A DNA stretch of 64,000 nt, from positions 52,888-116,887 of the forward strand of contig LLCB01000186.1 of NCBI GenBank assembly GCA_001414345.1, written 5' to 3'. The translations under genes were made by a program, and so were the position numbers. Positions 21,801 to 45,893 of the stretch are shown here, one piece after another. Under the pieces are notes generated by a model. It saw only the letters and a program-made list of their open reading frames with translations. It made no database searches and was not told the origin of the DNA. How positions within the stretch are numbered: the first letter of the stretch is position 1; every line of letters begins with the position of its first letter. The DNA comes from Hymenoscyphus infarciens. Lineage: Eukaryota; Ascomycota; Leotiomycetes; Helotiales; Helotiaceae.

Positions 21801-21814
21801 TATACTCTAAGTTT

Positions 21815-22379: not shown

Positions 22380-24950
22380 TTAGATTAACCTTCTATTATT
22401 AATATAGTAGACAATTACTTTACTAAGTAGGTCTTCGTAGACGACCTAAACTAGGTCTACTATAAGATCGACTTTATAGCTTACTCTACTATAATAGGTA
22501 ACTACTAACTCTTTAAGAATATACTCTCTAGCGTACTTAGTCCTAATAACAACTCTAAAAGTAAAGTCAAGACCTCTATAGTTAATAATAATAACCTTCT
22601 TACTCTTAGTAATATAATACTATTCCTAGAACAACGAATTATAATAGATACTACTACTAATACCTTAATTAATAATAAAGCTTATACTTATAATACTATC
22701 TATAATATAGTTACTATAATAACTTAGTATAACAAGTTAGGTACTATTATCTCTCTACTTATTTATAAACTTAATAATAGCAAATACGAATTTACTCTAG
22801 CTACTAACAAGTCTACTACTATAATCTAGTCTAATAAAGAAGCTATTATTAAGGCTAGCTATATATTAGAGGTACTCTCTATTACTATTAGAAGTTAGAA
22901 CGCTACTAATAATAATATAAAGGAGCCTACTACTACTACTAGTAGTTAAGACTCTATTAGTAATAATATAAAAGAATCTACTACTACTACTAGTAGTTAA
23001 GACTCTATTAGCAATAATATAAAGGAACCTACTACTACTACTAGTAGTTAGGACTCTACTAGTAATAGACCTACTACTATTACTAGTAGTTAGAACACTA
23101 AAGCTACTAATAGAGATTCTAAACCTAAGGACGAAATAGTTACTACTTATAATAAGTAAAAGAATAAGAAGTTAAGATTTATCTAACTAGAATATATCCT
23201 ACTTAAGAAATAATAGAAGATTCCTAAAGTTATAAAGATAGAAGCTAAATTTAGAACTATATTTACTATAAATAATAAGCTATACTATCTCCTTAACTAA
23301 GTCGAGTTATCTAGTAATAATAGTATCCTAGCCTCTTTAAAGTAACTTTATTTCTAGTACTTAGAACCTTATATCTACTTTAATATAAAACTTACTCTTA
23401 ATAGTAAGCGAATATAAGATAATAAGAACGTCTCTTATAAAGAAAGATTTAATATCTCTAACTATACTTACTTTAAGACTTACTTTAATTAAAGAGCTTA
23501 TATTATTAAAGACTTTATATATTAGAACCTTAATAAATATAACCTACTAGCTACCTTTCTAAAACTAGACTTTAGAAAGCTAGAAGATATAAAGATTATT
23601 ACTATTAATATTAAGATAAATATAATTAATATTACTAGTACTAATATCTCTTCTATAGTTAATCTAAACTATAGTTAAATAATATAATAATTTATTAATA
23701 AAGTTAAGACTACTTAGATAGAAAAGAGTATTCTTAAATTTATATTTATTATTAATAATTACTATAGTAACCTTCCTCTTATTAGTACTAAAATCGAAGC
23801 TAATAAGAAAAGGAACTCTAATAACTTCTAGATTAAAAACACGTCTATTTCTAGCTAATTAGATATAGGTAATCTATTCTAGATTCTAGAACAGATACTC
23901 TTAAGAGTTATAAGTAAATACTTATATTATATCCTTATATTTTATAACTATAAGTATATATATATACTTCTAGCTTATACTATTTATAATAAATTCAAGA
24001 TTATAGCTAAGAAAGCTATAGATTAGTAATTAGATGAATTTACTATAGCTATTTCTTATATTTATAGCTTAGATAGAAAGCTATTATAATATAATTATAA
24101 TAGAGATAAGGCCTAGATTACTACTATTAATATATAGCGCTATATTTATAAGAATCCTAAAAAAGGTAATTATATTAAAGTCTAATTCCTTAATCTTAAA
24201 GCTATACTATATATTAGATATAAAGGACTTAATACTAAGAATAAGTATTATTTTAGTAAAGAAGTCTTAGATAATAAAGATAAATCTAATAATAATACTA
24301 GAGAATAGATCTATAACGTAGATAGTAGTAAAATAATTATTAGAGGTAATAAGAAGGAAAAAGCGAAGATAAAGAACCTACTAGAATAGTAAATAGAAGA
24401 GCGATAAGCTACTATTATAGGAATTATTACTAATATACTATTCTCTCTAAGTATGATCTTAATTACCTTATATACTAGAAAGGATCTACTATAATAAGGC
24501 TCTAATAGTAAATAAGTTACTACTTATCTTAATATTCTAATATTAAATATTACTAATATACTTCTTATCTATTTTATAAACACTTTTAATAGAATAGAAT
24601 CTATATATAAGATTAAGATTATCTTTAAGATTTTAATATAATTCTAAAATAATATTATTTAAAGTCTTAATAATAGAAGAGTATTAGTAAAGGAGAATAA
24701 GCTATCTTATACCTCTATATATTATATAAAGCTATTTATAAACTTTAACTCTCTAATTCCTTAAAAAACTATAGACTTTTTTACTAAGTATTATAGTAGG
24801 CCTTTCTTAGATAAATTCATTTAAAAGGCAATTATAAAGTTTAATTCTAACTATTAGATTAAGTATAAGAAGTTATAAGAGCTATATATACTATTTATTA
24901 GTATCTAAGGCTATATCTCTTCAGTTATTCTTATACTCTACGTGATTTAG
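22380..24950 (+). pseudogene. accessory ORF-X of Element 1 (unknown protein, about 855 codons)
   Basis: One reading phase (codons starting at 22380) stays coherent for about 2.57 kb. It has no frameshift and no TGA, only scattered TAA/TAG where Gln or Trp would be expected. Near 22923-23096 it contains a 51-bp tandem repeat encoding Glu-Pro/Ser-(Thr)4-Ser-Ser-x-Asp-Ser-Ile-Ser-Asn-Asn-Ile-Lys. The rest is rich in Ile, Asn, Lys and Tyr, inflated by RIP. A hydrophobic run, ATIIGIITNILFSLSMILIT, near 24410 could be a membrane segment, but RIP bias makes that call unsafe. The protein lies downstream of pol, where some elements carry extra genes. I do not recognise the family, and homology with Element 2 is unclear here. 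Confidence 0.6.
22923..23096 (+). repeat. 51-bp tandem repeat within ORF-X
   Basis: Two full 51-bp units (22923-22973, 22974-23024) and two shorter ones (to about 23096). Each contains four to five ACT triplets followed by AGTAGT, giving Thr/Ser-rich peptide repeats. Confidence 0.8.
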
Positions 24951-25978
24951 TAGAACGCGGTTCTAACCTTATATTTCCAGCTCTAACGCGACTAAATATT
25001 TAAATCATTATCTTATTCTTTAAACTCTACCAAAGTATATAATAATACTGAAATTCAACGATGATTTACCTATAATCTTATGTTTAAAAAGCTCTACTAA
25101 AAAAATGATTATTTCAGTATAAGTTAGTCTATAATTAGGTCTATATAACGAATAAAAGCTACGAATATATCTAGAATATTCACGATTTTCTACGGATAAA
25201 ATACCCTTCGAATTATTCAAGAATAAGAAGCGTTTAGAGTGTAAATAGCAGTCGTTTATTTATGAATATTCTGTATTCTCTACTCTTTTAGTATAGTTTC
25301 CTACTTATCTAAATATATATGAAAATCTCTTGAATTTAGTCGCTTTCGTTATCTCGATTAGGCTACGCTAAGGCGTTTCTAGGCTAAAAAGTGGATAAAT
25401 TATCAAATAAGGTGAAAAGAGTAGAGTTTGAAACCTTAGTTTAAAGGTCACGTATATAAGGTTTTAGAAAGTAGGGTGTCATATAATACCCTTTGATATA
25501 ATACTCTATTTCATATAATATAAGTAATAAAGAGTAGAGACGATAGTAATCTATTAATAAAAATTAAAAGTAAGTGAATTTATAGTTTAGTTATATTTAA
25601 ATATATATATAAAAAGAGAGTGAAATTCAACTTATACGAACTCTCTATACTAAGACCTAGAGAGCGGATATTAAGCTTAATAAATAGAAACTATTCGTAA
25701 TATATTTATTTAAGCTCTTATTACTCGAATAATCGCTCGAATACTATATATTTATTTAATATTTATAATAAATAATTAATATTTTATTTATCTATTCGTT
25801 ATATAGACCTATCTATAATACCTACTCTTACTACTTCTACCACTTCTACCGCTACTTTTATACTCTTTTATTCTTCTTTTTAATTAATATACCTTCTCTA
25901 GGATAGCGTAAGGCTAATACTAATAAGCTAGGACGAAAAAGTCTACTAAAAGAGCCTTAAAAGCTACTAAAAAAGTCC

Positions 25979-26026
25979 TCTCAAAGAGAAGGCCTCTCAA
26001 AGAGAAGGCCTCTCAAAGAGAAGGCC
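25979..26026 (+). repeat. three perfect 16-bp tandem repeats
   Basis: TCTCAAAGAGAAGGCC occurs three times with no change (25979, 25995, 26011). Each unit folds as TCTC-AAA-GAGA. CpA is intact in all copies, so the array looks younger than the RIP episode or escaped it. Confidence 0.9.
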
Positions 26027-26212
26027 TCTTAAGTACCTATCTTATACACGTCAAACTAAGAGCTAGTATAAGCAGTATAATATACCTATTTATAGTAGTA
26101 ATTAGCTATGTTAGAAAGAGGTAGAAAGAGCTTCAATTCAGATTTTGATATCTTAGCACTTCTAAACTGGCTTAGTAGCATCGTAGTTCGAAGCTACCTA
26201 GATTTTAGTCTG

Positions 26213-26237
26213 AAACTACTCTAAATAAGAGTAGTTT
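26213..26237. other. perfect 10-bp stem-loop
   Basis: AAACTACTCT (26213-26222) and AGAGTAGTTT (26228-26237) are exact inverted repeats around a 5-base loop. The stem extends outward imperfectly (AGTCTG against CGGACT). It lies just before the start of ORF-Y. A role in translation or RNA structure is possible but unproven. Confidence 0.6.
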
Positions 26238-26269
26238 TAAACCGGACTACTGAACGCGTCTATACGTAG

Positions 26270-29200
26270 GGTATAAGGATAACTAAAGGGATAGTATCTT
26301 ATAAGATAGATTAGATAGAAACTCTTTTTATATTAGATTACTATAATCCTAATAGTATAAAGAACCGAGTCCTTCTTATATATCCTATAAATAAAAGAGT
26401 AGATAATCTCGCTAAAAAAATAGATAAGATCTTCTTATTACTTAGTATTAAGAAGACAGTTATTTACCTTAGTAGTTTATTAGTAGAAAAGAATAAGCTT
26501 CTTAATTACTATATACTAGAAGACTTTAAGTTTTATATTAAAGATATATTAGCTCTATTATATAGTTTTATTAAATATCTTATTTATAAAGCTATTTAGA
26601 AGGTTAAGATAAATAAGAAGGTAGGAGATTAGAGATATCTAATATATATATAGAAGTTTAGCTTTTAGAAGTATATCTTTAATCTAATTAGTAGATTAGC
26701 TAAAGAGGTTATAGAATTCTAAGCCTTTAAAACATATACTTAAGAAGTCTTCTATAATCTTAATAACCTAGACTTAAGGCTTTTAGCTTATATAGATACT
26801 CTTAATAAGGCTATATAGAAAGTTATTATAGAAGTAGATATTATTATAACTATACTAGTAATTACTTTATAATTAAGAGCTTAAGAATAAGTAAGTAAAT
26901 TATTTAGATTTAGTATAGACAAGGCTAGTATAATAAATCTAGCTATTATAATTACCTTAGCTACTAGTCTTAAGTTTAAGATATATAGTATAAATAGTAA
27001 TATTAAATAAATACGTTATTATTTAGTCTTAAAGACAGATAAGGAAGCTTAGAATCCTAGTATAAAGTATCTTAATAATACTATCCTAGAGCGTTCTAAG
27101 TATAGTAAGTATTATCTTATATACTTAAACTATTAAAGCTAAATATATAATAGTATTATCTAGAAATTCGTTAATAGAGAATACTACTATAGCGAAATAA
27201 TCGACACTACTACCTACTATAGCTTACTTCTAAGCGATTATATAATAAAAGAGGTTAATAAGGAAATTTTTAATCTTAATACTTAATTTATTATAATATA
27301 AGTATAAGATAGTACTTCTAATATTAAAGCTAAAAGCACTTCTATCTTTAATAAGAACTATATTAATATTAGTAATAAGTAGATATAATATATTAAACAA
27401 AAGCTTAAGTAGTATAAGATTAAGTACTTTAAGACTACTTATATCTATTATTATAAAGTAGAAGTTAAAGCTATAGTTATTAACCTTAAACGTCTAAATA
27501 ACCTAGGCTATATCTTATATATTACTAAAGTTACTTAGAGTATAATATTTAACGTCTTAATACTTAGTATTCTAACTAGTATAAAGATTTTAGAATAGTA
27601 TAGTAATATAAAGCGTATATTAGTATTAGTTACCTAATACGTTTACTTACTTATAGTACTTATCTTAGACTATATTCTCGAGCTAAAGTTATATAGCTAT
27701 AACGTTTTCTAGGATAATATATAGATAATATAACACTCTAATATCAGTTATATCTACTAATTATAGTATTATATAAAAGATTATAAATATACTACTAATA
27801 CTTAAGTAATAAATACTAAAAACTATAGTAGATATAGTTAATATAGCTATCTTTAAGCTACTTATATAAATAATAAGGCTTTAAAATATAACCTTTATAA
27901 TTGTATTAGTTATAAAAAGAATATATACTCTTATACTAAGAATAAGGAAGATAATAGTACTAATATATTTAGCTAAATATATAAGCGCTATAAATTAGTA
28001 TATTATATTATTATAGAGAAGCTAGACAGCTATAAGTAATATAACTATAAACATACCTTTTAAGAATACCTATATATATAATATATAAAGTATAAGGAAT
28101 TTAGCTATTATAAGTTAATATATATAAATATAGTTAAGTATACTACTTATAGTTTAAAGGATTATATTAAAGAGAGCTATAAAATAGCCTATAGTAAGGC
28201 TAGAAAGGTAATATAACGTATACTTAGTATATAGCTTAGTAATCGCGACTACGTTCCTCCTCTTAATAATAAGAAAAAGCTAGTTATAATAGTAGATAAT
28301 AATCAAGACGCCTTAGTAATAACAAGTAAGCCTCTACTATAGTCTAAAATTCTACCTACCTCTATAAAGGTATATAAATACTTATAGACGTAAATAGATA
28401 TAGTACTTATAAAAGGTAATATAATTATTAGTAATTTAAGCTAAAAACTACTACTAATAAGATTTATTAAACTAAATTCTAAGTAATTTGTTATATACTT
28501 AGTCTCTACTATCCCCTAAAACATAGTAATTATACTACTAGCCTTAAGAAATAAGATCGCTTTTAAGATTAATAATTAGACCTATACTATAGGCTAGAAA
28601 TAGAAGCTACTTTTAGATAGTAAGGAGAAGACGATTAAATTATAAATCTTAGAAATATTTAGTAAACTAAGTAACTATACCTTCTAGAGACTTTATAGTA
28701 TTAATTAAGACTCTTAAATAAATCTAACTATTACTACTTTAGCTATTATTTCTTAAAAAGATAATAGGTTACTAGATTCTAATACTACCTCTAGATAAAA
28801 TATAGAGATTAAGACTTAGAATATAGAGATCGAGCCTTAAAATTCAAAGATTAAGACCTAGAACATAGATATCGAGCCTTAAAATTTAAAGATTAAGACC
28901 TAGAATATAGATATTAAGTCTTAAAATTTAGAGATTAAGACTTATAACGTAGATATTAAAACTAAGGATATAGAGATCGAGAAGTCTATAAGAACTTTAC
29001 CTAAATTAGCTACTAAATCTACCTCTCCTCTAACTAAGGCTCTAGTCCCTTATATACCTAATGCCTTTAATAAATAGGTCTTTAAGCTATATATTATATA
29101 CTTTAACTTTATAGATAAGCTAGACGTTCTCTAAAAGGACTTATACTATACCTAGTTCTCTAATAAGCATATTATAACTAACGTTAGTAGAAATAAGTTA

Positions 29201-29821
29201 TACTATAGAGTATAATTAATTGTCTTAGCTTTATAGATTTAATATAGTATTAAATATCTATTTTCTAAAGAGGAACTTATTAATATACTAGTAAAGAGGC
29301 CTATAAGTAAGGTGTATAGAGCTATACTTAAAGACGCTAAGATAGAGCTTATTAAGAGCGATTTTACTATAGATACTTTTATGTTTTTCCTTTATCTACT
29401 TATAGATATATTAATTAAGTTAAAGATTACTTTAAAACAACTAGATCTTATTATTTATATAGCTAACGCTTCTACTACTTCTTAGGTTATTTAGGATAGT
29501 AGTTATAATTTATATACTACTAACTATATCTTATAAATTTAAGTAAATAGTATCTACTATAAGGTTATATAACTAATTACAACTACTATAGATTAAATAA
29601 AGGTTTAAGAGATAAAAGCTAAGAAGTAACAATTAGCTATCCTATGCTATAGAATTAATATCTATAATAGGATAACTATAGCTAAGATACTAGGCTTTAA
29701 TAATAGATTTTTTAATAAATTAGAGAATAAGAACAAAGGAGAGGATAATATAGAGAAGGATAAGAATAGATTAGAAGATATTATAGAGAAGTTAGAAGAT
29801 AAGGAGCTAAATAAGGCCTAA
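26270..29821 (+). pseudogene. accessory ORF-Y of Element 1 (unknown conserved protein, 1,183 codons)
   Basis: A single phase runs from 26270 to 29821 with no frameshift and no TGA; only TAA/TAG interrupt it. The true start is uncertain because ATG becomes ATA under RIP (ATA codons lie at 26273, 26279 and 26291). Recognisable landmarks: LNNLDLRLLAY (26759), LNNLGYILYITKVT (27494), a Tyr-rich, probably once Cys-rich stretch (about 27890-28200, with FSQIYKRYK at 27968), and a 14-residue tandem repeat (28799-28985). The end is charged, with many Glu and Lys. The first three landmarks recur in Element 2 at almost identical spacing, so the protein was under selection before RIP. No known domain is recognised. 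It sits between the pol genes and the 3' LTR in the sense direction. Confidence 0.75.
28799..28985 (+). repeat. 42-bp tandem repeat within ORF-Y
   Basis: Three full 42-bp units (28820, 28862, 28904) with partial units at both ends. They encode a 14-residue repeat with alternating Ile and Lys/Glu (N-I-E-I-E-P-x-N-x-K-I-K-T-x). Confidence 0.8.
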
Positions 29822-29874
29822 TATTAACTTATATTTAGTATCTCTTTTTACGACTTTAAGAGAAGACGCTTTTT

Positions 29875-29885
29875 TAAGAGGGGTA
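29875..29885 (+). other. polypurine tract of Element 1
   Basis: AAGAGGGGTA directly abuts the right LTR start TGTTACG. The same arrangement (AAGAGGGG before TGTTAT) occurs at the 3' LTR of Element 2 on the opposite strand. Confidence 0.75.
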
Positions 29886-30068
29886 TGTTACGAGAAGGAC
29901 ACGTGACTACACTAGTAGCGGACCTATAGATGTAGATAGTACGAGTACTTTACACTCTCTCCTTCTCTCTTTAGACGTTTATTACTATACTATATAAGAG
30001 ATTACTTTTACGTATTTCATCGGGCCTAGCTATAAGCTCCTGATCTGTGATCTGTCCCTTATGCTACA
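29886..30068 (+). repeat. right (3') LTR of Element 1
   Basis: 183 bp, from TGTTACGAGAAGG to TGCTACA, followed directly by the TSD GTCTG. It aligns without gaps to the left LTR. It keeps some G and C bases lost on the left and the reverse, as expected when RIP hits copies independently. Confidence 0.93.
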
Positions 30069-30073
30069 GTCTG
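30069..30073. repeat. target site duplication GTCTG, right copy of Element 1
   Basis: Identical to 14482-14486 and directly adjacent to the right LTR. Removing the element and one copy joins the two HET halves in frame. Confidence 0.93.
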
Positions 30074-30857
30074 CTATATTCGAGAATTCATACCACCGGG
30101 TGTAGGGCTCTAAATTCAGAGAAACTTGCATATTGGACTGTACAACTGTTAGCAGGTCTATTATTAAAGTAGGAGGTCGAACTGTATTTCAGGTGTGGGG
30201 CAACAAACACCAGAGCTTGTCATAAACTTCGGCAATCATCCTATTCTATCTTTTCGTGTTTCAAGTGTATAGCTTTAGTAGGCCGCATTGTAGACCTTGA
30301 TATATAACTTTGGCTTTGTTTCTTCGACTCTTGTTGTGAAAGAAGTCTTTGCTGTTAAACAAAAGGTCAATCACCATAACATGGCCGCTTTCTGTAAATC
30401 GTTCCCTGCTGCATTCTTGCGCCATTTGATCATTGCTAAAAGACAACCTTCGTAGTGCTAATAGACCCTCTTACAACGTCTAAATTATTTTTTGTAGTGG
30501 GTTCCTGATCTACGACCTTACGAAAACTTGGTCGGATCCAGATGGCGCATTTGTCCTTGGCATTTTCAGAGGGGAATTTGAGAAGGTTCTAATGCGATGG
30601 GTAGTCGAGGACAATAGATACCGGCCGTTTTGGATGGGGACACGGATGCTAGGATGGTAATTGCAGCACCTGGCATCGATCCAAAGATATCGTAGAGCTA
30701 AGTTTTGGGTGACTTGGATGGCATCTCGACGTGTCGCTGGCCATTTGTCCATGGCAATGCCGCCTCTGAAATCTTTAAATGTGTCGCTCCTCAAATTAAA
30801 CTTAGTGACCGCCACAAGCATATTTAATTCCACATAGGTAGCTCTTGTAAAACGCAA
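30069..30857 (-). pseudogene. HET-domain gene, 5' part (split by Element 1)
   Basis: Reading on the minus strand from 30857, TYVELNMLVAVTKFNL corresponds to the HET-domain opening (YVALSYCWG..), followed by KWPATRRDAIQVTQNLALRY and LWIDA, the most conserved part of the family. After LWIDARC the phase shifts, and later stretches are readable only piecewise. The fragment ends in VV-stop-ILEYSRR at the insertion site, where the stop is TGA in place of the expected TGG (Trp). Position 30857 is TTG, not ATG, so the true start lies upstream or has been lost. The 3' half is 13663-14486. Frameshifts plus the insertion mark a pseudogene; I cannot tell which came first. Confidence 0.82.
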
Positions 30858-32342
30858 CCAAGAAACTTTCGTTAGACCAAAATAAACATTCAGTAAAAGT
30901 TACTTGTATACGTGTTATATTTAGTGTTTTTATGTTGTTATGATATAAGAGATAGATGAGTTTATAAGACTTCTGTAGGTACGCCAGTTGTAGTGTGCTC
31001 TGTGCTTTCGTATCAGTGTATTTAAAGGGATATCATTGATCGCGATTCTTCTAACAGAAAAGAGCGATGAATCTAGATTATATGGTAAGATAGAACTTTT
31101 AGGACGATTAGCGATCAAAATATGAAGGATGGGCGGGGTTTTTTAGAAAAAGAGAGACTTAGTAAGTTATTACAACGGTACCTCTGGTAAAAAAGTGTAT
31201 TAATATACGCTCTTGTAAAAGAGAGCTATACCTTGCTTAACACGCGAGGTAGGGTCTTATAGATGCTACGAACTTTCTATTATTATATAAATAACATAAC
31301 TTAGAGTATGTTAGCTTTTTATACTATATATTAAATTACTATAGGAACCAGAATACTTATTTTTTGATAGTAGATATTTAAAGAGTAAAATAGTTAAGAC
31401 TTAATTTATTAAAAGATCTTTTATAAATTAATTATAGAATAAAAGGCCTAATTAATAATGATTTATTAATCAAATTAAATCAAGTCTAAAATAATCTAAA
31501 AGAATAACGGAGTTTAAGATTTCTACGTTTATTTTATAATAAAGCCTAAAAATTACTTACTAATTATACAAGTTTTCTATCTACGACTATTACGCCTGAG
31601 ATGTGGTTTGTTAATTAGTTTTGGGACTATCTAGAAAAATGTACTAGAATACCGATACACTTAAGGTATAAGGTTGATTCTTAAAACTCTCCCCGAAGAA
31701 GTTCATATACAGCAGGATTTGGGAAACCCTATTGAAGAATAAATTTCTCTCTATGAATTTTCCTTTGCACTCAAATCCCCGCACAAGCTTTTGCCGCTTC
31801 CCTGAATACTAGGCGTAGTATTTTCTAAACGTCTCTCAGCTCGTTACCACTTTTTGATGCGCTTTTAGCATCAAAACTAAGTAAAAACCACTTATACACC
31901 TACTTTTATTCTTATAATTAATTAACAACTATAACATAAAATGGCAAAGAAACACTGAAGATATAAAGGTTGCTAAGCCTCTAAACGAAAGACTTCTCGA
32001 CGTGAGGTCCTAGTTTAACAGCGTACTATTATTATTAGTAGAAGTAGACAGAATACTAATAAGTAAGAGTTACTCCTTTAGACATAAGATAACCTAGATT
32101 ACGTATCTATTTCAGAGAGCAGTGTTAGCGACCTTAGTTTCTATTACTTTTTATATAATATATATATAGTAGAGGTGAAAAAAGAGGGTTATGTTCAAGC
32201 GAGAAACTGAGCTGAAAATTAGCTAAGGACGCTCAGAAAATACTAGACCGAGTACCCCCCTAGACTTTAGATACCTCGGTATCTTAGACTATTCCCCCTA
32301 CCAGTGAAATTAAAAGGAAAAACAAATCCAGACTTACACAAA
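30858..32342. other. intergenic region with RIP-like relics
   Basis: 31260-31600 is AT-rich with few TpG/CpA and looks like a small RIP-mutated repeat relic. From 31941 a frame starts MAKKH and runs about 70 codons through several stops (mostly TAA/TAG, one TGA) to about 32162. This could be the remains of a transposon gene, but the family is not recognisable. A perfect stem-loop occurs at 31852-31876 (TTTTGATGC and GCATCAAAA). No intact gene is visible. Confidence 0.45.
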
Positions 32343-33404
32343 CTAGAATCCAGGGGGCCAAACACAACGCGTTGGCTCATTCTCCTTATTCTCGTCCTCC
32401 AGCGAAGTCTTCAAAATCTCGAATCCCAACTCCCCACACTCTTTGCACAAAGTAGCGAATTCTTCCCGACCAACTAATTTCTTGACATATTTGCCAGCTG
32501 TTTTAAAAGCGACTTGCATCAAAGGATCCGATTCTGGTGTTCCATCAAAGAGGAGTCGTAAGGTAGTGATGAAGGATTGACTGCCCCAGTTTGAATTGAC
32601 AAGTTCTTCGTACTTGATCTTTGCAAGTGTTTTGAGGGGTTGGACGTCGTACTTCTCTGCCATGATGTATACTTGTGTATTGGTGAGTAGGGCGATTTCG
32701 GCGTTGTGGTCTACAACTTCCACCTCGTCGTTGGGTTTTTGACGTTTGGCATTGGGTGGTGAAATCATGACCGTTTCGTGGACTCTTTTTTTGGGGTTCT
32801 GAGCGTGCAGACTAGTACTTGGAGTGATGAAAGAGTTGTACGTTAGGGCTGCATAGGCGTCTTGTGGAGGGCGGGGCCTTGAAGTGGTGGGAATCTCTGG
32901 AGCAGCTTGGATAATGGGCTTTTTCTGGCGATTGTCATCATAGTCACCTGTATACAGGAACTTGAGAAAAAGCACGACAATATCAGGATCCTCGTCCTCA
33001 AGATCAATCTTGCCATCAATGGCTTCCTACGTTAGAAAATCAGTCGCAGTTTTGTGATCTCAAATTGAAGCTGGACAGCATACCTTGAACCCCCCATCAA
33101 TAGCAGCAGCCAATGGCTTACTTTGGGGCAATACTATACACCGATGAACCTTAAATTCCTTTCCCTTGCAGGTGAGGATAAGATCGGAGTAACGACCAGT
33201 TGATAGCATACTATTTTGGATTACTAGTATCGGCAGTAAGATGAAGTGGGGATGTGCATACGTCGCATTAATGGATTGAATGTGTTCTGCGATTGCTGGT
33301 GAGAGTGCCATCTTTCCAGGTGGACTTGAGTCGATAGAGATTGGATTGGAAGGTCTGGTACCGGAACGTAATGAGGAAAACGGTGAATAAAGTGTTGGCG
33401 GCAT
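32343..33404 (-). CDS. BTB/POZ domain protein
   Basis: Three exons, 33404-33262, 33210-33084 and 33026-32343, code for 317 residues. Intron 2 (33083-33027, 57 bp, GTATGC to CTAACGTAG) is required to keep the phase. Intron 1 (33261-33211, 51 bp, GTATGC to AATAG) is inferred; it is a multiple of three without a stop, so retention would add 17 residues. The BTB core follows the first intron: GRYSDLILTCKGKEFKVHR, then LPQSKPLAAAIDGGFKEAID, a D/E-rich turn, and FLKFLYTGDY. An 85-residue Pro/Ser-rich insert contains PKKRVHE and NAKRQK, a possible nuclear signal. A helical C-terminus (VYIMAEKYDVQPLKTLAKIKYEEL) matches the region after the BTB in fungal proteins. Likely role: protein dimerisation, perhaps a Cul3 adaptor or nuclear factor; the target is unknown. 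It has normal base composition between two RIP-mutated elements. Confidence 0.88.
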
Positions 33405-34763
33405 GAGAGCTGGGATTTTTGGTAAAGTTGGTGGTTGTTGAAGTTGTGCCGACGAGGGAAAGGTTTGGGAAGATAAAAGGAATTTAAGGAGATCATGCCA
33501 AGACTACTTGGAAGTGACGAAGTAGAGTACGTTACTTAGGGCCTGAAACTGGGAATAGTCTAGTCCTCACCTTCAAATCGGGAGGAGCGAAGACGAAATT
33601 AAGCAGCAATGGTGAAGCTCAAATTTTACAGCGAGTAATACTAGTTGACTTTAATTTCTTGATAAGTGATGCAAGAAAAGTGAGTGAGAGCAGAATACCC
33701 CTCTGGCATATTTTTTGAAGTACTCAACGCAAGGCGGGTTATTATCACCAACCTTGACATCCCACCATCCGTGACCTTTTTGGTTAATTATTCAACAACC
33801 ACCGGTCGGAAAACTCCACTTTTTGCTTGCAGTCAAGAATATACTAGTAAAGAGTCAAACACACAAAGGAATAGTATTTTTCAGAATCAGAGCATGTACT
33901 AATTCTTTTCCAAGGGTACGAGCTACCGCAAAACAGGCTCTTCGCGACCACTGGACAAGTATACGCTTCAAGTACACCGTGTAATGAATTCGATCAAAAA
34001 TCTTGGGAGCCTTTTGCATGAGAAAAGCAGTCAGACTCAACGGTGATTTTCCGTACTGATATTTCTATTCAATTAGACACGCAACTTAATCGATTGTGTT
34101 TCTTAGTTGCCTGTCATCGGGAAACAAGCTGAAAAGACTCTTTAAATCCATACTGTACAGTTTCTCTATTTTCATCACACATCGTAGCCTAGTTACTTAT
34201 TTCTTTCTTTCCTTCTTTATCAGAAGCCAAAGAGTTGCAAGAAGAAGGGATCTCCCTGAGACCATTCGCAAGAAATACAAGCTTTTGAGATCCGAGAGCA
34301 TTCTACTACTATTTCGGTGTAGGCTTCAATTTCCCTGTCAAATACCACACGGAGAGGTGCATGTGATGATGGGACGATGGGATGGACTAAGAAACTTTTG
34401 GAGTATGCTCTGAGAAAAGTTTCATGGAGTTTACGGCTACTCCCTTGTCCTACTCTCAACACCAAAGGAAATCCAGGAGGAGAGACATTGGGGTCGTGGA
34501 TGAAGCGCGACAACCCCCATGAACAGCCTGCTGGTTCTGGATTCTGCAGCCCCCTTCGATTCCAATTATGGCCAAATTCCTCAGACTACCTGTTGGACCC
34601 AGAGAAACCCAATCCCAGGAGAGTGGCGTTGAAGGTAACAATTATGTACATATGGAGTTTGCGATCCGCTCGTTTCTCATTTGCTTCAAATTCAAAATCT
34701 TATTAAAGGATACTTCGCAACTCGAGATATTTTATTCGAGTGTTCTTCATCTATATCACAGGA
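33405..34763. other. BTB gene 5' flank and intergenic DNA up to Element 2
   Basis: Balanced composition. Short overlapping frames on both strands have no recognisable domains. Presumably it holds the BTB promoter; no clear TATA box was identified. The boundary with Element 2 at 34764 is sharp. Confidence 0.45.
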
Positions 34764-34946
34764 TGGTCGTATTGAACGTAGTTTCGTTATCTTGCCCTAG
34801 TCGAGGCTTAAAAGAAAGGTAGATTTAATATAATTAATTATAGTATATAAAACGTCTAAAGAGAGAAGAGAGTATAAGGCGCTCGAAGCTATCTACAGGT
34901 TCCTCCGTCTATTAGCGCCAAGAGTTACGTGGTATACCCTATAACA
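34764..34946 (-). repeat. 3' LTR of Element 2
   Basis: 183 bp. On the minus strand it starts TGTTATAGGGTATACC and ends CAATACGACCA. It aligns without gaps to 48321-48503. A polypurine tract (34947-34962) lies directly before it in element orientation. Confidence 0.92.
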
Positions 34947-35022
34947 TGCCCCCTCTTAAAAAACGTTCCCTCCTAGGAGCGAAATAATTAACTATTAATC
35001 TCCTATATTTAGTCTATTACTA

Positions 35023-38000
35023 CTAAGAAGAGGGTTTAAACACGCTCTTCTTTAATCCTTCTATCTTTCTTATTATACTACTCTCTAGAGCTTCCTCTTC
35101 TTCCTTATCTATAAAGCTTCCTAGTATTCTAAGGACAGATTTAATATAAGCGATATTATCGTTTTATAAAGATTAATCGTCTTAAGACTAATACTTAGAT
35201 TATTAACTGTCTTAGGATTATTACTCGTCCTAGGATTAATATTTAGATTAATTATTATAAGTAATATCTTAAATTTCAGTTATATAATCATCTTTTAGAT
35301 TATTATTAAGCTTAGATACTTAATTGTTACTAGTATTCTTCTAATACTTATATTCTTACTTAATCTTGTAAATCTCTATAATTATTAGGTATTTCTACTT
35401 AGTAAAGTCGATAGTTAAAAAGTAAGGAATTTTATAGTTATTTAGAGGGTTTATAATAATAAAGGACTTAAATTTTTAACTATTTACCTCTTATCGCTAT
35501 CTTATTATATACTAGTTTTAAAGAAGCTTAATTACGTATTCTATTCTATTAGTTATAAGAGAAGGATAAACGTTTTCTAGAACCTTTAAGAAAGTATATA
35601 CTATAAAGATATTATTCTTAATTATAAGTATTATATATAAACTTAATACTAGGTAATTTAAGACTACTAAAGTAATATCTATATACTTTATAAGATATTT
35701 AACTACTTATTATAGAGGTAACTAAATTATATTCTATTATAGCTTATATATTACTACCTTTATAGCTACTTCGTTAGTTAGTAATTATAGTAACTCTTTA
35801 ACCTCTCTTATTTATAAGACTTATTATATAGATTTCCTAGTAAGTCTCTTAGGTACTATATAATCCTATACTTAATATAGGCTACTATAAGTCTTATAAA
35901 TAATATTAGCTATATATACTAAGGAGTTATATCCTATCTAGGTATATTTATTATAATAATAGTACTTATAATATTACTAATTATATACCTTATATTTATA
36001 TTATAAGTAGCTATTTAGAAATTCCTTATAAAGGTAAAAGTAAGATTAGTATTTATAATATCTCTAGCTAAAAAGGTTATAGCTCTTAGAATTCTTTAAG
36101 AGCTTATTTAAACAGTTATATTCCTTATATCTTAATTCTAAGTATAATTTATATTTAAAGACTAGATTATTTAAATATTCTAATTTCTTATAACTATACT
36201 CTCTATAGTTTAGGCATATCTTTATTATAGAAGCCTATTATTCTACTACGTAATCTTAGTCTCGAGTATAGTAGTATAGGCTATAAAGCTTACTAACTGC
36301 CTTATAGTCTATTAATAATCTAGTATCCTTTTTACTATAGCTATATCTAGTAGAGTTAAAAATATAGTTATTAATAAGGATTACTAAGCTATATATATAG
36401 TATATAAGAGTAACTAATAAACGTTCTAAGCTACTAACTTATAAAGAAAGGAACATAGTATCTAAGAAGTCTAGAATGACGAAAGAGTAGATATTATCTT
36501 ATATAGTCTTAATTATATATAAGATATAATTTAGATCCTTTAATTAGTTAGTTTTAATTATAAAAGCGTTTATCTTAGCCTTATATTTACTAAGAGTTAT
36601 AAATTTATATTAATCTTCTAGCTTTATAAAACGTTATAAGCTAGCCGTAGCCTTTATATAACTGTGTACTTTATCTATATATGCTTTATTATAGATACTA
36701 TAGCTATACTCTTTAATATTAGACTATACTTCTTAAATAATAACTATAAGAAATTAGCTACTATTTCTAAAGACTTTCTAATTTAGCTTCTAAGTAAATA
36801 AGTTGCTAGGTAATTTTCTATAGTCCTTTATAGCGTTGATAAGCATACTATTATAATGTTACTAACTTAAAAACTAGATAGTAAGAGAGGTTTAGTAGCG
36901 ATAAGAATATATTAAGTATATAGTTAGAATTTCGCTATAGATAGCTTAACTTAGTATAGTTAAACTAAGAAGTAAAGAGAGAGAATTCTATATAGCTTTA
37001 TTATCTTTTAACTAAATAAAAGGCTTATCTTACTTTTTATTACTATTATTAATAAAGATCTTATATTTATAAATTAATATAAGAGCTAATATAATAGCTA
37101 AGTCTCTTAGGCTATCTTTATTATTTTTGAAAACGTAAATTAGACTAATAGCTTTAACTACCTAAGTCTATAAGGCTAAGGCTAGAGTAGTAATAAAAAC
37201 GTTAGCCTTATAGTATACCTTATAAGCGATTCTCTTAATTACTAGCTTTATAGTAGCTAGGTTAAGCTCTAGGTTATTTAGATTTAATTTAAGCTCTATT
37301 ATAAAGCAGTCTAGCTAGTGATATTTAAGGTTATTAGAGTAATCGCGGATCTTCTTAATTATATAAAAAGCTAAGGTATAAATATATATATATACCTTAA
37401 ATCTCTTATTACCTTATTACTTATTATTATCTATATTTATAGCTATATTATAAAGTAGCTCTTAGAATATATATTTAACGATTATAGTTATGTTTTTACT
37501 CTTATTATCTTTCTCTCTATTTCTAGTATTATTATTATAATTATCTTAAGCTACCTTATTTTATAGTTTAATAATAGATATAAAATTCTTTAGAATATAG
37601 TATATAAGGAATTTTAATTTCTTAATTCTAAGACTACTAATATAAATAACTGTCTTATCTAATCTAAATTTCTTAAACAGAGCTACTATCTTCTTAGCTA
37701 ATTTGTTAGTTCTTATATTAGTAGAATAAGTAAGAAGAGCGCGCTTCTTTTTATTTAGATTAGCGTATATTATAATAATTATATAGCTTATATAATCAGT
37801 CTTATAAGTAGTAACGCTCTCTTAAATTAGGATAAAAGAGATAGTATTCTTATAAGACTTAAAATTTACTAAGTAGTTAGATAGGAAGCTATGAATAATA
37901 TACTAAATAAATAGGTTTATAAAGAAACGTCTATAATAGTTCTTCTAAAAATTTAAAAGCTTAAAATAAAGAGAATTATTAAAGTTAATAAATAGTATAA

Positions 38001-40990
38001 GAATAAAGGCTAGTATATATTATAAAGTAATATTTTTTATGTTTATTAGTCGTCTAAAATTAATATAGTAGACTATATTCTTTAATAGCTAGTTAGTTAT
38101 CTTTAGTATTACTATAACCTTATACTTAATCTAGTTTTTATACTCTATAATATTAAGGGCTTTTAAACGTGATTTGTTAGTAGAAATGTTAATATTAATA
38201 GATACTTTAGTTCTAGGTAGTTCTCTTTAACGTCTATTCTTTTTTATAGTAAGAAGGAGAGAGAGTATATCTAATAGAGCCTCTAGGAATTTAATAACTA
38301 TTCTAGTAAGAGTATATAGAATGTTTTTAAGCTTATATTAAAGAATAGTATATGTCTTAGAAGCTTTAAGCTTAATAATAGTTTCGCTACTCTCTAGGCC
38401 TTTATCTCTATTATCGAGTAATTCGTCTTTAATATCTATATCCTTATTAAACTATTTTTATAGATTATATAGCTTTTTTTTATTTAGTCTCTAGTATTTA
38501 ATATAATTATTTATTTTAAGGTTTAGAAATTATATTATAAGGTATTTACTCTTATTAAGATTATAGTAGAAATAGTTTCTTAGGTCTAGAAAGGTAATAA
38601 AAGCCTTAGGCTTAGTATGATTCTAAGTATTAAGCTTTCTATATAATCTTTTGAATTTAAATATAGATATATTGAATTAATCTCGTATTTAGTCTTAGAA
38701 GTAACTCTTATTTAATTAGAATTCGTTAAAAAATATATATATAAGTAGAATATATATATATATCTAGTCTTAGAATACTCTAATATAGTATAGTAGCTCG
38801 TCTTCTACTTAGAGAGTAGGTTATTATATAACTAGGAATAGATTACCTATATTAAGATTACTAGCTCTAGGTAAGTCTTTAATCTATTTTAGTAATAGAT
38901 TTAACTACTTATTATTAGTAATCTTTTATATAATCTCTTATACTTTCTTATATATAGAGAAGATAACCTATATAAAAGTAATATTCTTATTATTAGCCTT
39001 TATATAGGATAGGATATTAGCTAATTAAAGTATCTTAGTCTTATAGCTAGCTTAGTATATAATAGGTATTTCTCTACTATTACTAGTCTTAAGAAGAGAG
39101 GCTTTAACTTTTATATATATAACGAGCTTCTTCTCTAGGTTAAAATTCTTTACTCTAAAGGCTTTAATAGACGGATTATCTTTAGTAGTATCTTCTATTT
39201 AAAGGTTTTTAATAGTAGTAGCTTTAATAGTAGTATAAATTATATATTAAGGCTTACTACTAGGGTTAACCTTGTCTTTGTTATCTAGCTTATTAATATA
39301 TTAGTTACTACTTATTTTAAGATATATAGTAAATTATATGTTTTCTTATACGTAGTAGATCTTTACCTAATAAATAGAGATATATAGACTATTAATATTA
39401 GCGAGGTTATAGTTCTAAGATAAGCTATATAATACGCTATTTACTAAGTATACTATAGTTAAGGCTATATAATACTTAGAAAGATCCTAGTATTTCCTAG
39501 GTTCTTTAAGTAATACGAAATCTAGGCGACTTTATAGTATCTTAATACGCTTTCTATCGCTATTAAACTCTAGTTATTCTTCGGCTTATAGTTAGTATTC
39601 CCCGCCTTATATAAAAGTATTACTAAGCTAGAGTTAGGCTTCGTCTTATAAGTCTATATAACTTTGAGTAAAAGGGTTATTAGGCTAAGGCTAGGATTCT
39701 TCTAAGTCTACGTAACCTTAAGCGAAAGAGTTATTAGACTAAACGTTAGACTGAGATTTAGAGTTAGACTAAGATTTAATATTAGGCTAAAGCTCGATAT
39801 TAAGCTAAGATTTAATATTAGGCTAAGATTTAGTATTAAGCTAAGATTTAATATTAGGCTAAGGTTAAGATTTGCGAATTAGGTATACTAGCTCTTATAT
39901 AAGTATAGTAGTAATACTCTAGGCTTCGACCTTACTAAAAGCTACTAAGAAGCTTTTGTTATTTAAAGTAATAGTAGGTTAATTTTCCTAATTGCCTTTA
40001 AACTTATTAATAGACTTTTTAATAAGTTTAATAGCTAGTATTTTAGGATTTGCCTTCTAATTCTTTTAGAGTATAGGTATAATCTTAAAAACTAAGGAAC
40101 TTGATAAGCTACTAGCGTTTATAGCACGGTCGAGAGCGTTATTACTCTTAGTAGGTATTATACTAGTAGCTATATTATAGAAGGTTATAATAGTATTAAA
40201 GCTAGTATAACGTTTACTAGCTTTAATTAAGCGTAGTCGTTCTAGGCCGCCGTTGAATATTTCGTTTAGTAATCTATTAACTAGTAAATATATTATAATT
40301 AAGGTGCTTACTACGTACTATAATAATAGTTTTATACTATTTAATAGTTCTAAGGTTAATAGACGAAATAGTAGGGATTTAAGTTATATTAATAGATAAT
40401 AGATTAAAGAATAAAAGTTATAGAGTAGATAGAAGATAAGGTTATAAGGTTTAATCTATAATCGTAATATTAAAGCTTAAAATTTATAGGGTTATATAAT
40501 TACTATCTTAGGCGTTAGACTAAAAATAAGGTTTTAAGTAGATAACGAGTTAGCTAACTAATAAGAGCTTACGATTTAATTAGGTTATTATTAAAGATAA
40601 AGACAATAGATAATACTTAAATCTAAGATTAAGTAGATAATATCTAATCTAAGATTAAGTAAGTAGATTAAGAGATATTAAGATTAAGGAAAATATACTG
40701 TTATAGAGATTATAATTAAATTATTATAGAACGATATTATATTAATATTTTTAAAAGTATATATATACTATACTCTTTAAAGAGAACCTCGTAGGTCCTT
40801 TACTAAGAACGGTTAAGGCGTTATAAATAAATATAAGTCAGTTTAATACTATAGAATTAGTAGATAACTAGTCTTGATTTATATCTTAAATATAGCTTTT
40901 AAGATTAGAAAGGATAATTTATAAAAACCGTTATAAGTACGCCTTCTAATAGCCGGCGCTAATATCTAATAAAAAGTACTATATCTTATA
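35023..40990 (-). pseudogene. accessory region of Element 2, homologous to ORF-Y (unknown protein)
   Basis: Minus-strand blocks sampled at 39841, 37261, 36478 and the terminal stop at 35023-35025 share one phase, which is also the phase of the chromodomain (41161) and RT (43921). Stops in this phase are TAA/TAG only. The N-terminal part holds a hexapeptide repeat (Gln-Pro-Asn-Ile-Lys-Ser, 39745-39866). LNNLELN (37281), LKDLNYILYIIKT (36543) and FSQRYYKYQ (36072) match Element 1 ORF-Y motifs in order and spacing. A Tyr-rich stretch (about 36200-35850) probably stands for a former Cys-rich domain. The C-terminus is acidic (IDKEEEEALESS). It may be a C-terminal extension of pol rather than a separate gene; the ancestral stop cannot be told from a RIP stop. 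No known family recognised. Confidence 0.7.
39745..39866 (-). repeat. 18-bp tandem repeat in the Element 2 accessory frame
   Basis: About seven units of AAGATTTAATATTAGGCT on the top strand. On the minus strand, in the accessory phase, each reads Gln(stop)-Pro/Leu-Asn-Ile/Thr-Lys-Ser. Confidence 0.8.
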
Positions 40991-43900
40991 GAATATTATA
41001 AGAATAGTCTACTCTATTTCTTAGCTTAGTAAGCCTTGAATACTAGAGTAGCTTACTCTTAAATAACAGAAGTAGATTCTTATATTATATCTTTATATTC
41101 TAACTACTTTACTCTAAAGTATAGCTATATAGAACCTTTTATTAGCTTTTATATCTCTTTACCTAGGATTTCTTTAATAATATATTACTCTTTACTATTA
41201 ACTATAATATAGCTAGGTTTAAGCTATAGACGATTAAAGAGGTTACTCTTTACTAGTTTAAGGTATTCTATAGAGATAACTAGATAAATAGCTTTTAGAT
41301 ATAAGAGTAGTTTAAGCTTAAATACTAAGTTATTAATAAAGTAAATAATCTTAAATAGTCTTAGTTTTAGAAATAAGAGCTTAGTAAAGTTTTATAAATA
41401 GGTGCTCTTCTTATAACTCTTAGCTATATAAAAGAAGACGTAATCGTTGAATTTAGAAGGTATATACTTTTTATTATAGTATATCTTTATATATACTTAT
41501 ACTATTTTAACTAAGTTCTCTGCCTACTTTTATAATTAGTCTCTATATATAATAAAGTCGAAATCCGATTCTACTTCGCCTATTCCTAGTTTAGTCTTTA
41601 CTTTATAGCTATATATTATTGTAAATAGCGTAACTTCTATAGATACGTTAATAAAGGTATTTAGAGATAGCTAGATAAAAGAGATAATATCTTTCTATTT
41701 AAACTAATTATATACTTTACTAATAATATAGTATAACATATATACTACTATCTAATTACTTCTCTCTACCTATCTATTTACTATTGAATAATATACTATA
41801 GTAAAAGCTAGTCTAGTCTTTAATAATTCAAAGAGTCTTTTCTAGAAAGTAGATTAAAACTTTAAGTCTTAATTAGAAATAATATAATATAGTAAGCTTT
41901 AATCATTATATACTCTTTTAAAAAAAAGGTTTACCTAGTCCTCTATAGTATATATATCTTTGCTTATTATTAGCTTAATAGCTTTTATATATTTATATAT
42001 AATTATAAGAATCTTATTATTACTATTATTAGTTATAAGTAGACTGTTAATAAAGTTTATAGAAAGTACTATAAATAGTATTATTAGATATTCAATAGGT
42101 TGAAGGCTTCTTTAAAATAAGATATTCAAAGGCTTAGCTATCTAGTAGATAGAGTAGATTATAATATACTCTTTAATCCTTTTATATATCTTAGGAAAAA
42201 ACATATATTTCTTAACTTATTTATATACTCTTTTTATACTAAAATAACTCTTATTATTATAAGTAGTAGTAAGGATATCTTTAATATACTTTTAAGAAAT
42301 ATATAGCCTTTCTTTACTCTAATCTTAAAAGAATAGAAGCTTATTTATAGAGTTAAAATAGAAGCTTTCTAAGGTAGTAATAGAAGTACTATTTTTTATA
42401 TCTACGTACTATCTAGCTAGCTTTCTATATATAAGTCTAAAAGCACGGTTATAGAGTATCTTCTTAGCTATATCTTCTAGAATGTCTTTGCTTATTATAA
42501 GAGTAGTTAATTCGATTATTAGATTAAGTAGCGTAGGTTTTATTAAATCTAAAATAATCCTAGCTAAAGAGGTTAGCGCCTCTAATCTTATAGTTTATTA
42601 AGTTTATATAAGAAAGTAGTATATAAAATAAGATATACTATAATTATAGTACTCTTAAGTACTCGATATTATAGCTTTTCTAGTCTAAATTTTAATAGCT
42701 TTTACTACTAGAGAGTCTCTAGAAAGCTTAGAAAGAGTATTTATATTAATATATAACTTTCTAGCTTAATAAATAATTATTATACTTTTTATATACTTAG
42801 ATAAGAATAATTACTAATTTACTAATCTTACTAATTGCTTTTCTTTTACTAGACCTATATCTTTAAAAGCATTCGTTATAGTATTATAGTCTATAACTAC
42901 TATAAAATCCGTTCTATCAAGGTATTAGAGTAGCTTCTTAAGCGCTTAGATAAGTATACTAGTCTTAAGCTTTATAGACTAGTATTAATCTTCTATAAAG
43001 GCTAACGATTTAGATAGAAAGAGAATAGAGTATTTAATACCTTTACTATCTTTCTAGTATAATATAATGCTATAACCTATCTTATAGCTACTATTTACGT
43101 ATAAAATAAAGAGTTTTAAAAAGTTAAGAAACGCTAAGATAAGTACTAAGTAAAGTTTATCTTTTAGCTTTTCCTATATCTCTTGTCTCTTCTTTAATAG
43201 CTTCTAGTATAGCTTAGAATTATTAAGAAAATCGAGTAGCTTCTTTTTTATATAGATATCGCAACTCTTTCTACTAATAGACGAGCTTTTAAATCTAAGG
43301 GTTTTAATCTTATTTAATAAATTAGTAATTACTACGTAATATCCAACGAATTTATAGTAATATCTAAAAAGACTTAATTCTCTTTTAAAGTCTAAAAGCG
43401 TATTAGGCTATTTAATAGCTCTAATAGCTTCTACTTTATCTTCTATAATATATAGACTATAATAAGTAACCTAATATTCTAAGGCCTTTAGTCTAAGCTA
43501 AGCAAAATAACACTTTAATAATAATAAGGTAATACTAGATTTATATAATCGTTTAAGAACTTAGGAAAGGTAGATAAGATAATCCTCTTTTATTTATAAA
43601 AAGATAATAGTATTATTTATAAAAACATATATAAATTACTATAATAGATTACTAAAGAGATTTTCTATATAATATTAAAAAAAGGATAGAGAGGTTACTA
43701 AACCTATTATACTAACTATAAGCTACTCTTAGTTATAGTATAAGGTAATAAAAGTGGTTTTTTATCTATCTTTTAGCTTAATCTTTTACTAGAAGAAGCT
43801 TTTAGTTATATCTAGTACTAAGAATATTATAGTCTTATATATCGCTTATAGAATATTATCTTAGTAAGGTAGAGGCTATACGTCTATATAGAGTTTAGTA

Positions 43901-44450
43901 TTAACTCTCTAAAGGTTAACTACTATATAAGGTTTACTATCTTATTATATAAGAAAGGCTAGTAATACTACTAGCGAAGGCTAATCTAAGAGAACTCTTT
44001 CTACTACTCCGATTTTAGTAAGAGGATTAATAATACTATTAATAGCTTACTTATCTTTATAAGATATATTATAGAGAGCTTATTTTAGGTTCTTAATATT
44101 AACGCTATCTTAAAAGTTAATAGATATCTCGATTCTATTATTAAAATATCTAAGCTTACTATAAAATAGTAAAGTATTATTTTAAATAATACTACTTATT
44201 TTAAGTTAGTAATCTTCTCTCTAATATTTAGATATATTTACTTTTAAGATGTTAATAAGATTAGGATTAGTAAAAAGAGGTTTAATAAGAGCTACTAGAT
44301 AAGGCTATTTATTAGGTTACTTACCTTTAAGTTACTTAGATATAAGTAGAAGTCTTTTAAAAACATTAGTTAGGCTTAGGTATACTATGTAATTAGGGTT
44401 CTCTCTAAGAGCCTCTTTAAGCTACTCTAGAAACCCTAGGATTTAGCCTC
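40990..44450 (-). pseudogene. pol of Element 2: RT, RNase H, integrase, chromodomain
   Basis: On the minus strand, FNNRIEISINF and NIKNLKQALYN (about 44.2 kb) lead into KPYIVVNLxRVNTKLYIDV (about 43.93 kb), LDITKSFF, and FINNTIIF with both catalytic Asp codons changed to Asn. RNase H follows at about 43.1-42.9 kb, integrase to about 41.4 kb, and a chromodomain with YIIKEILGKEI at 41161-41195. The sequence parallels Element 1 pol residue by residue in many stretches but differs clearly, so these are distinct subfamilies. Stops are TAA/TAG. The protein is dead. Where pol ends and the accessory region begins cannot be fixed. Confidence 0.85.
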
Positions 44451-45893
44451 TAACGATATAAATAGGCGTGTCTCTAAGGTTTATATATATTAGTAGCTTA
44501 TTATTCTTATTAGTAATAGTATATACTAGGCTTTTATAAAAGCTAATTGTTATATCTTTCTAAGTATAAGATATAACGAGATACTCTTAAGTATATACTA
44601 GTATAATATAGTATTTAACTTATATATTCGTAGCTTTATAAGGTTTAAGAATATAAGTCTCTGCGGTATATATAGTTATATAAGCTCGCTCTTTTACTAC
44701 GTTATTAAGATATATAATACGAAATTAATATTTATAATATTAAATATAGTCTATCTTAGTTAGGTTCTTCTATTATTAGAAATCTATATAGTTTAGCTTT
44801 AAGAACCTAGTACTAATAAGGATATTATAGCCTAGGTCTTCTATAACGTATACTTTAGCTATAAACGAAAAAACTACCTTATCTATAAAGTGTAGATAGA
44901 AGAGTAATTTAATAAAGTTTTAGCTTAAAGGGCTCTTCTCTACTCTATTTAAGTTTATAATACTAGAGTCGACGGTTAATATAATATTAGAGAAATATTT
45001 CTTAAGAATCTATAAGCTAATTAGACTAATTCCTAAGCTAGTATTAAAGTAGAATTCTATTAAGTAGCTATTAAGGGATTTTATTATATACTTAGTACTA
45101 TTATAATACTTATATAAGATACTATTAACGAAGTATAAGCTAGTTAGCTTTCTAATAACTACTAAGAGAACCTCCTTCTTTAATAGCTCTATTAAAGGTT
45201 TAGGCCTTTTCCTAGGTTAATTAGTATAAAATAGTTTACTATAGAAGTTAATTTTATCTAGTAAGCTATCTACTTATATATCTTTATTCAGATTATCTAA
45301 AAGCGATTCGTAGTTTATTAGAGATAGTAAAAGAGTTATATTTAAAGCTACTAGAGAAAGAAGTAATACTTTAATATCTTCGTTTAGAGTATCTATAAGA
45401 GTAATTATAAAACTATTAATAATAGAGGTATTAATAATATTAGGTATAATAGAAGCTATCTTAGCTATTTCGCTTATTTTAGTAAGAGATTTATATCTTT
45501 TAATTATTTTTAGGTTTTCGGTTTTTTCAGTCTTCTTTATAGTACTTAATAAGAGTAATAATAATATATAAATATTCTATTATACTATACTATTAATATT
45601 AGATAATAAGGTTATAATAGAAGAAATTATAAGCGGTATACTATCTCGAAGCAACCGCTGAAGTCGTTTTCTAACTTATTATTAGAATATAGATTAATTA
45701 GCTGATTTTCTTAGTTCTATAATATATCGACTTTATAGATAGAAGCGAATTAGACGTAGGTCTGTTTATCTACTAGAATAAGATTATTATTATTAGCTTC
45801 TATAAGGTATACTAAGATAGTAGAAGCGATCTATTTTTAATTATTTAACATATTTAGCAAAACCTATAAGAGCTACTACTATTATCTAAAAGG

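Follow-up and report, generated by a model that had tools for sequence, protein, structure and literature searches.

A stretch of 64,000 nucleotides of the Hymenoscyphus infarciens genome (assembly GCA_001414345.1, contig LLCB01000186.1, positions 52,888 to 116,887 of the forward strand; hereafter the window, numbered from its first base) contains two Ty3/Gypsy retrotransposons of two sister families, Element 1 and Element 2, which are inserted in opposite orientation and which, though full-length, have both been killed by repeat-induced point mutation (RIP). Each of them carries, between the integrase/chromodomain end and the 3' long terminal repeat (LTR), a large additional gene, about 2,000 codons long (the accessory gene), likely to have coded for a giant protein with a UPF1-like superfamily-1 (SF1) helicase and, behind it, a Cys/His-rich tail. 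The genome of this fungus is 65.6 Mb in size and the window lies among RIP-type AT-rich blocks; in both elements the dinucleotides CpA and TpG are reduced to 0.08-0.12 of the expected frequency, whereas the adjoining gene region has 1.03-1.05. Because the copies are ruined by RIP, ordinary domain searches on the accessory gene fail, and the analysis relied on an alignment of 18 copies translated with stop codons read as X, 12 from the family of Element 1 (family 1) and six from the family of Element 2 (family 2).

The accessory frame of Element 1 is divided by an insertion, so that the feature lines are as follows.

22509..24916 (+), Element 1 accessory frame, N-terminal part
24917..26290, 1,374-bp TA-flanked insertion that splits the accessory frame in the window copy of Element 1
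26291..29821 (+), C-terminal part of the accessory frame in Element 1, with helicase core, Tyr/Cys/His tail and a C-terminal extension
35025..39525 (-), Element 2 accessory frame, main part, after which a run of stops comes

The frames of the two elements are homologous. The first-pass annotation of the window, made from the letters alone, had described three motifs in the same order in both, and these are exact in both frames, with spacings of 245 and 158 codons in Element 1 (LNNLDL at codon 163, LNNLGYILYI at 408 and FSxIYKRYK at 566) and of 246 and 157 codons in Element 2 (LNNLEL at 749, LKDLNYILYI at 995 and FSxRYYKY at 1152). The spacing is not due to chance, since tblastn of the frames with X at each stop aligns 26273-28570 with 37833-35524 (30% identity over 792 positions, E 3e-76) and, as a second block, 23187-25040 with 39525-37642 (29% identity, E 2e-46); in the 18-row alignment the accessory sequences of the two families are about 35% identical. 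The same annotation had proposed that a giant extra protein was kept while the elements diverged in pol, and both halves of this proposal are borne out, the first by the co-linear conservation, the linkage to pol and the third-position excess described below, the second by pol genes that share only about 67% identity in DNA and 43% in protein. Its estimate of roughly 1,200 residues or larger was right in calling the protein very large and understated its size, which is 1,956-2,015 codons, with 119-129 stops, in the eight of 12 fetched sister copies that have one unbroken frame. Other particulars had to be corrected: the Element 1 frame, placed from 26270, opens near 22.3-22.5 kb and is interrupted by the insertion at 24917-26290; the very long frame is not open, as RIP has left 75 stops in the 1,183 codons of 26273-29821 (the final one included); and the mapped extent of the elements was too small, because they run from LTR to LTR, 14487-30068 and 48503-34751.

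The pattern of substitution is that of a protein gene. Comparison of the 12 family-1 rows with the six family-2 rows gives 0.469, 0.393 and 0.600 differences per site at the first, second and third codon positions; for transversions, a class of change that RIP does not cause, the values are 0.273, 0.242 and 0.393. Within family 1, the sites with transversions number 19, 26 and 41 (P 0.012). As divergence is greatest at third codon positions, the accessory gene appears to have evolved under protein-level constraint, strong between the families and weak within them. Frame integrity was scored in sister copies: eight of the 12 family-1 copies keep one frame across the whole accessory gene and two (L054 and L059) are frameshifted, while coverage of the other two (L052 and L056) is incomplete and L056 has a short piece in a second frame; seven of the eight family-2 copies keep one frame over the matched part. 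A short tandem repeat with 51-base spacing lies at 22879-23118 in the N-terminal part; its copy number seems to vary, to judge by overlapping matches in some of the sister copies.

The middle of the accessory protein is rather probably a UPF1-like SF1 helicase with two RecA-like halves and motifs I to VI, as read from the following positions.

26366..26422 (+), helicase motif Ia position, Element 1
26822..26929 (+), motifs Ib to II, Element 1, with IDxAS
26990..27013 (+), motif III position, Element 1
27113..27169 (+), motif IV position, Element 1
27524..27568 (+), motif V position, Element 1, adjoining the LNNLGYILYI motif (the RIP-aware chain puts V elsewhere)
27608..27673 (+), motif VI position, Element 1
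36367..37842 (-), Element 2 helicase core, motif I to VI positions

UPF1-like helicases such as UPF1 and SEN1 correspond to the Pfam families AAA_11 and AAA_12. The first-pass annotation had recognised no known domain in the frame, which is probably wrong, given the motif series that emerges from profile-profile comparison and from a RIP-aware score, together with the tail discussed below. In the profile comparison, hhalign of the 18 element rows against six host helicases runs over 392 columns (P 0.031) and passes in order through the Walker-A region (motif I), Ia, Ib, II, III, IV, V and VI. The comparison helicases were intact host proteins from the same genome, whose labels (UPF1, SEN1, DNA2, NFX1-type, Aquarius) are our reading of their sequences. 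On trimmed columns hhalign gives 25.7 over 338 columns (P 0.055), against at most 23.8 and at most 80 columns in 48 block shuffles, 11.1 for the reversed profile and 22.2 over 107 columns for a gypsy profile. The RIP-aware score, which allows CpA to TpA and TpG to TpA changes, reaches 133.7 when chained, against 66.5 +/- 8.4 for shuffles (maximum 90.8, n=100) and a maximum of 77.7 for column permutations (n=100); its path agrees with hhalign at Ia, Ib, II, III, IV and VI and differs at V. The chained score is specific, as the helicase yardstick gives z -1.5 on pol and a gypsy yardstick z -0.8 on the accessory gene. Among eight single helicases UPF1 scored best (z 7.2), followed by SEN1 and Aquarius (both 3.5) and one NFX1-type protein (3.1), with the other four at 0.2-1.1; over two tests UPF1 had z 5.6 and 7.2 against -0.6 to 3.1 for NFX1-type yardsticks. 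Motif II reads directly as IDEAS in two of the 12 family-1 copies (L051 and L055). The strength of this co-linear similarity is modest.

The principal alternative is that the accessory gene, though real, conserved and part of the element, codes for an unrelated large protein, for instance an env-like or structural one, whose RIP-altered reading, rich in Ile, Lys and Tyr, imitates helicase motifs, and several observations speak for it and weigh against a helicase. No database family lies above cut-off: Pfam gave none for the four accessory pieces, and for the 18 rows only AAA_11 at E 0.027 (one row, below cut-off) and an unrelated family at E 0.24 (one row); NCBIfam returned a single unrelated match to the accessory gene (E 0.36), PADLOC none, and neither the PDB nor the protein database gave a match to the accessory query. 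The AAA_11/AAA_12 result, below the curated cut-off, comes from a weak test, for the similarly damaged pol gave no RVT_1 match either, and because of this the failure of standard searches says little. Nor is there a usable structure: AlphaFold, a check that had been proposed, was uninformative on the 18-row alignment (predicted local distance difference test, pLDDT, 36.5). Within the profile comparison itself, hhalign assigns a probability of only 1.6% to the 392-column alignment, and the trimmed alignment stops before motifs V and VI. The C-terminal RecA half is near the null when scored alone (chained z 1.2, local z 3.3). Taken singly, family 1 just passes its best shuffle in the chained test (22.6 against 22.5) and family 2, whose best path lies in the tail, stays below it (19.8 against 23.7). 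When only the window frames were scored, single host helicases yielded no signal with either a context-free or a context-aware RIP score.

Local scores are, moreover, unspecific. A gypsy integrase profile matches motif Ia (36.7, z up to 6.3), a similarity that was set aside because it does not extend into a chain, and with one copy per family the two yardsticks score 50.0 (gypsy) and 54.1 (helicase). An NFX1-type helicase yardstick gave no signal (z -0.6), and a 22-sequence yardstick, mostly NFX1-type, gave z 5.9 through motif Ia only; in hhalign the latter failed to beat its best shuffle both in its intact form (20.5 against 23.3) and after damage in silico (24.1-24.7 against 24.6). Finally, at the Walker-A motif (GxxxxGK[ST]) the lysine is invariant in the accessory rows and Tyr stands directly in front of it in all 18, making the P-loop irregular. 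An unrelated protein would nevertheless have to account for a long co-linear alignment obtained with forward helicases only, and not with reversed, shuffled or gypsy profiles, and for an IDEAS motif that can be read without any correction in two copies, and it is regarded as unlikely, although it is the rival to be taken most seriously.

Behind the helicase-like core lies a region rich in tyrosine, cysteine and histidine.

27806..28198 (+), Element 1 Tyr/Cys/His-rich tail, containing the FSxIYKRYK motif, a probable zinc-binding region
35875..36234 (-), Element 2 Tyr/Cys/His-rich tail

After motif VI, 30 of 155 alignment columns hold Tyr, Cys or His in both families, compared with 10 of 276 in the core (columns 301-576) and 9 of 210 before it, and at 9 of these 30 tail columns some copy has Cys or His. 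Codons for Cys and His can become Tyr codons through RIP, so the natural reading is that the tail was Cys/His-rich and probably zinc-binding. The living accessory protein, we infer, would have been an ATPase/helicase that bound zinc.

The accessory gene belongs to the element. A 601-base family-1 accessory probe finds 28 matches of 589 bases or more across the genome, and a 1,101-base family-2 probe matches almost in full at 14 places. The cognate pol lies upstream on the same strand at 29 of 30 family-1 and 13 of 15 family-2 accessory hits (accepted distances of up to 14 kb and 20 kb, respectively), with a probe-to-probe gap of 5.66-6.03 kb in 25 of the 29 and of 5.52-5.73 kb in 9 of the 13; conversely, an accessory gene lies downstream of 28 of 30 family-1 and 13 of 14 family-2 pol hits. 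These counts leave out three weak accessory hits (70-78% identity), the pol hits of the other family (10 and 24, at 67-70%) and second fragments of three pol copies, and the 30 family-1 accessory hits include two fragments that lie on one contig near a single pol; as 40 of 47 and 40 of 48 pol candidates were scored, they are lower bounds.

This linkage bears on a second transposon, a Helitron or another helicase-bearing DNA element, nested downstream of pol, which the first-pass annotation had itself named as an outcome that would undo its proposal. Helicases are common in fungal DNA transposons, according to PMC10799480, and the window copy of Element 1 does hold one nested insertion of 1.37 kb. 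Throughout dozens of copies of both families, however, the accessory gene keeps its place, its strand and mostly its spacing, the 3' LTR comes after it, and the transposon helicases named in PMC10799480 are Helicase_C, DEAD and PIF1 rather than UPF1-like, so that the linkage to pol argues against nesting in both window copies and this origin is very improbable. The insertion at 24917-26290 has a TA duplication and imperfect terminal inverted repeats and is missing from all 12 sister copies; it is Tc1/mariner-like, by its TA duplication only. Equally improbable is a host helicase gene captured and carried neutrally, without benefit to the element: retrotransposons are known to capture genes, and a function for this one is predicted from sequence, but neutral carriage fits poorly with a gene kept across two families at about 35% identity and with the third-position excess seen between families and, weakly, within them.

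The structure of the elements that carry this gene is that of long LTR retrotransposons, 15.6 kb for Element 1 (14487-30068, plus strand) and 13.75 kb for Element 2 (34751-48503, minus strand).

14482..14486 (+), target-site duplication GTCTG, left of Element 1
14487..14669 (+), Element 1 5' LTR, 89% identical to 29886-30066
15760..16608 (+), Element 1 gag-position frame, conserved with Element 2 (tblastn 30%, E 1e-22)
17313..21677 (+), Element 1 pol (reverse transcriptase-RNase H-integrase), RT_RNaseH at 9e-11, 43% protein identity to Element 2
21353..21805 (+), Element 1 integrase end with an SH3/chromodomain-like stretch, 40% to Element 2, SH3_Tf2-1 at E 0.018
29886..30068 (+), Element 1 3' LTR, with a purine tract ahead of it
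30069..30073 (+), target-site duplication GTCTG, right of Element 1
48308..48503 (-), Element 2 5' LTR, 91% identical to 34751-34946
41131..45672 (-), Element 2 pol
34751..34946 (-), Element 2 3' LTR (BLAST ends; the LTR may stop at 34754)

Element 2 is flanked by CAGAT and TAGAT, which are equal only when one RIP-type change is permitted. Purine tracts also speak for LTR retrotransposons. In tblastn of six frames with stops as X, the two elements share a co-linear order of a gag-position block, pol, a chromodomain-position block and two accessory blocks, and the divergence of their pol genes marks them as sister families. Pol is of Ty3/Gypsy type, with RNase H ahead of integrase: Pfam finds RT_RNaseH at 838-935 of pol above cut-off and H2C2 at 1083-1123 below it (E 0.14 and 0.0098), and all 12 proteins found by a pol profile search carry RVT_1 and RT_RNaseH, being of RVT_1/RNase H/integrase types (best E 5e-16). 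The gypsy yardstick on pol gave a RIP-aware score of 714 against a shuffle maximum of 63 (chained z 28.8), a control that is favoured because its 12 yardstick proteins were found with the same pol. The chromodomain-like stretch is visible by eye only in both elements, and Pfam reports SH3_Tf2-1 (E 0.018) in one of three pieces.

With respect to known systems, UPF1 acts in nonsense-mediated decay (NMD) and has a zinc-binding CH domain that precedes the helicase, while the members of the SAD-3/Hrr1/ZNFX1 group have the helicase first and NF-X1 fingers after it. The accessory protein shares the motif order I to VI with the host UPF1-like SF1 helicases (UPF1 and SEN1, loci L009 and L010 of the same genome), of which UPF1 is the best single match, but its Cys/His-like region comes after the helicase, its Walker A is irregular and it is encoded by a retrotransposon. 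Its layout resembles that of the SAD-3/Hrr1/ZNFX1 group, although its scores to NFX1-type helicases are low and any finger pattern is obscured by RIP. SF1 helicase domains of viral type have been described in proteins of insect long interspersed nuclear elements (LINEs) and fused to LTR-element proteins (PMC4686597, PMC5563155 and PMC6338049); these are likewise retrotransposons that gained an SF1 helicase, whereas the accessory gene would be a UPF1-like, separate giant gene of a fungal Ty3/Gypsy element and not a viral-type domain of an open reading frame or a fusion. Orchid Ty3/Gypsy elements, as presented in PMC9289625, are also giant and have an additional RNA-acting gene, coding for an AlkB N6-methyladenosine (m6A) RNA demethylase; the enzyme and the host (a plant) differ, and its activity was demonstrated in vitro. 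The same paper describes extra enzymes fixed in LTR retrotransposons as rare. In a limited literature search, covering parts of these reports, the helicases mentioned belong to LINEs, insect LTR fusions and fungal DNA transposons, and none of UPF1-like type was found in any fungal Ty3/Gypsy element.

As to function, the accessory protein may act on the element's own RNA of 13-15 kb and shield it from host RNA surveillance, either UPF1 and NMD or RNA interference (RNAi) with its Hrr1/SAD-3 helicases, a proposal that is put first while falling somewhat short of even chances. Surveillance would naturally be directed at an RNA of this length in which long stretches downstream of the first gene are left untranslated. 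Protection is preferred because UPF1, Hrr1 and SAD-3 act on RNA (Hrr1/SAD-3 in RNAi-directed heterochromatin and meiotic silencing, PMC3759863), because silencing in a plant-based test is weakly suppressed by the helicases of insect LINEs (PMC6338049), and because of the orchid demethylase and the long RNA itself. As a second and more doubtful choice, the protein could strip structure or proteins from the RNA so that an unusually long genome can be packaged and reverse-transcribed. Still more speculatively, a fungal Ty3/Gypsy lineage might have captured an RNA helicase of UPF1/SAD-3 type with a zinc-binding tail and turned it into a counter-defence mimic that blinds NMD or RNA silencing to the long element RNA. 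If the helicase reading is true, a UPF1-like helicase of this size would suggest that RNA surveillance is a pressure on long fungal retrotransposon RNAs, and the accessory protein would be a suppressor candidate open to testing. Each additional enzyme fixed in an LTR retrotransposon points to a step of the conflict between host and element. RIP, for its part, can hide a gene family from standard annotation.

The rest of the window holds an ordinary host gene of the MMU163 mitochondrial protein family (5332-6369) and, between the two elements, a minus-strand fragment with a HET (heterokaryon incompatibility) domain (30510-30899, E 2e-5). An inverted LTR-like match to the Element 1 LTR (79-82%) at 53270-53446 is perhaps a solo LTR or the end of another element, and an AT-rich tract at 54675-56281 contains several overlapping direct duplications of about 0.1-1.4 kb with 66-85% identity.

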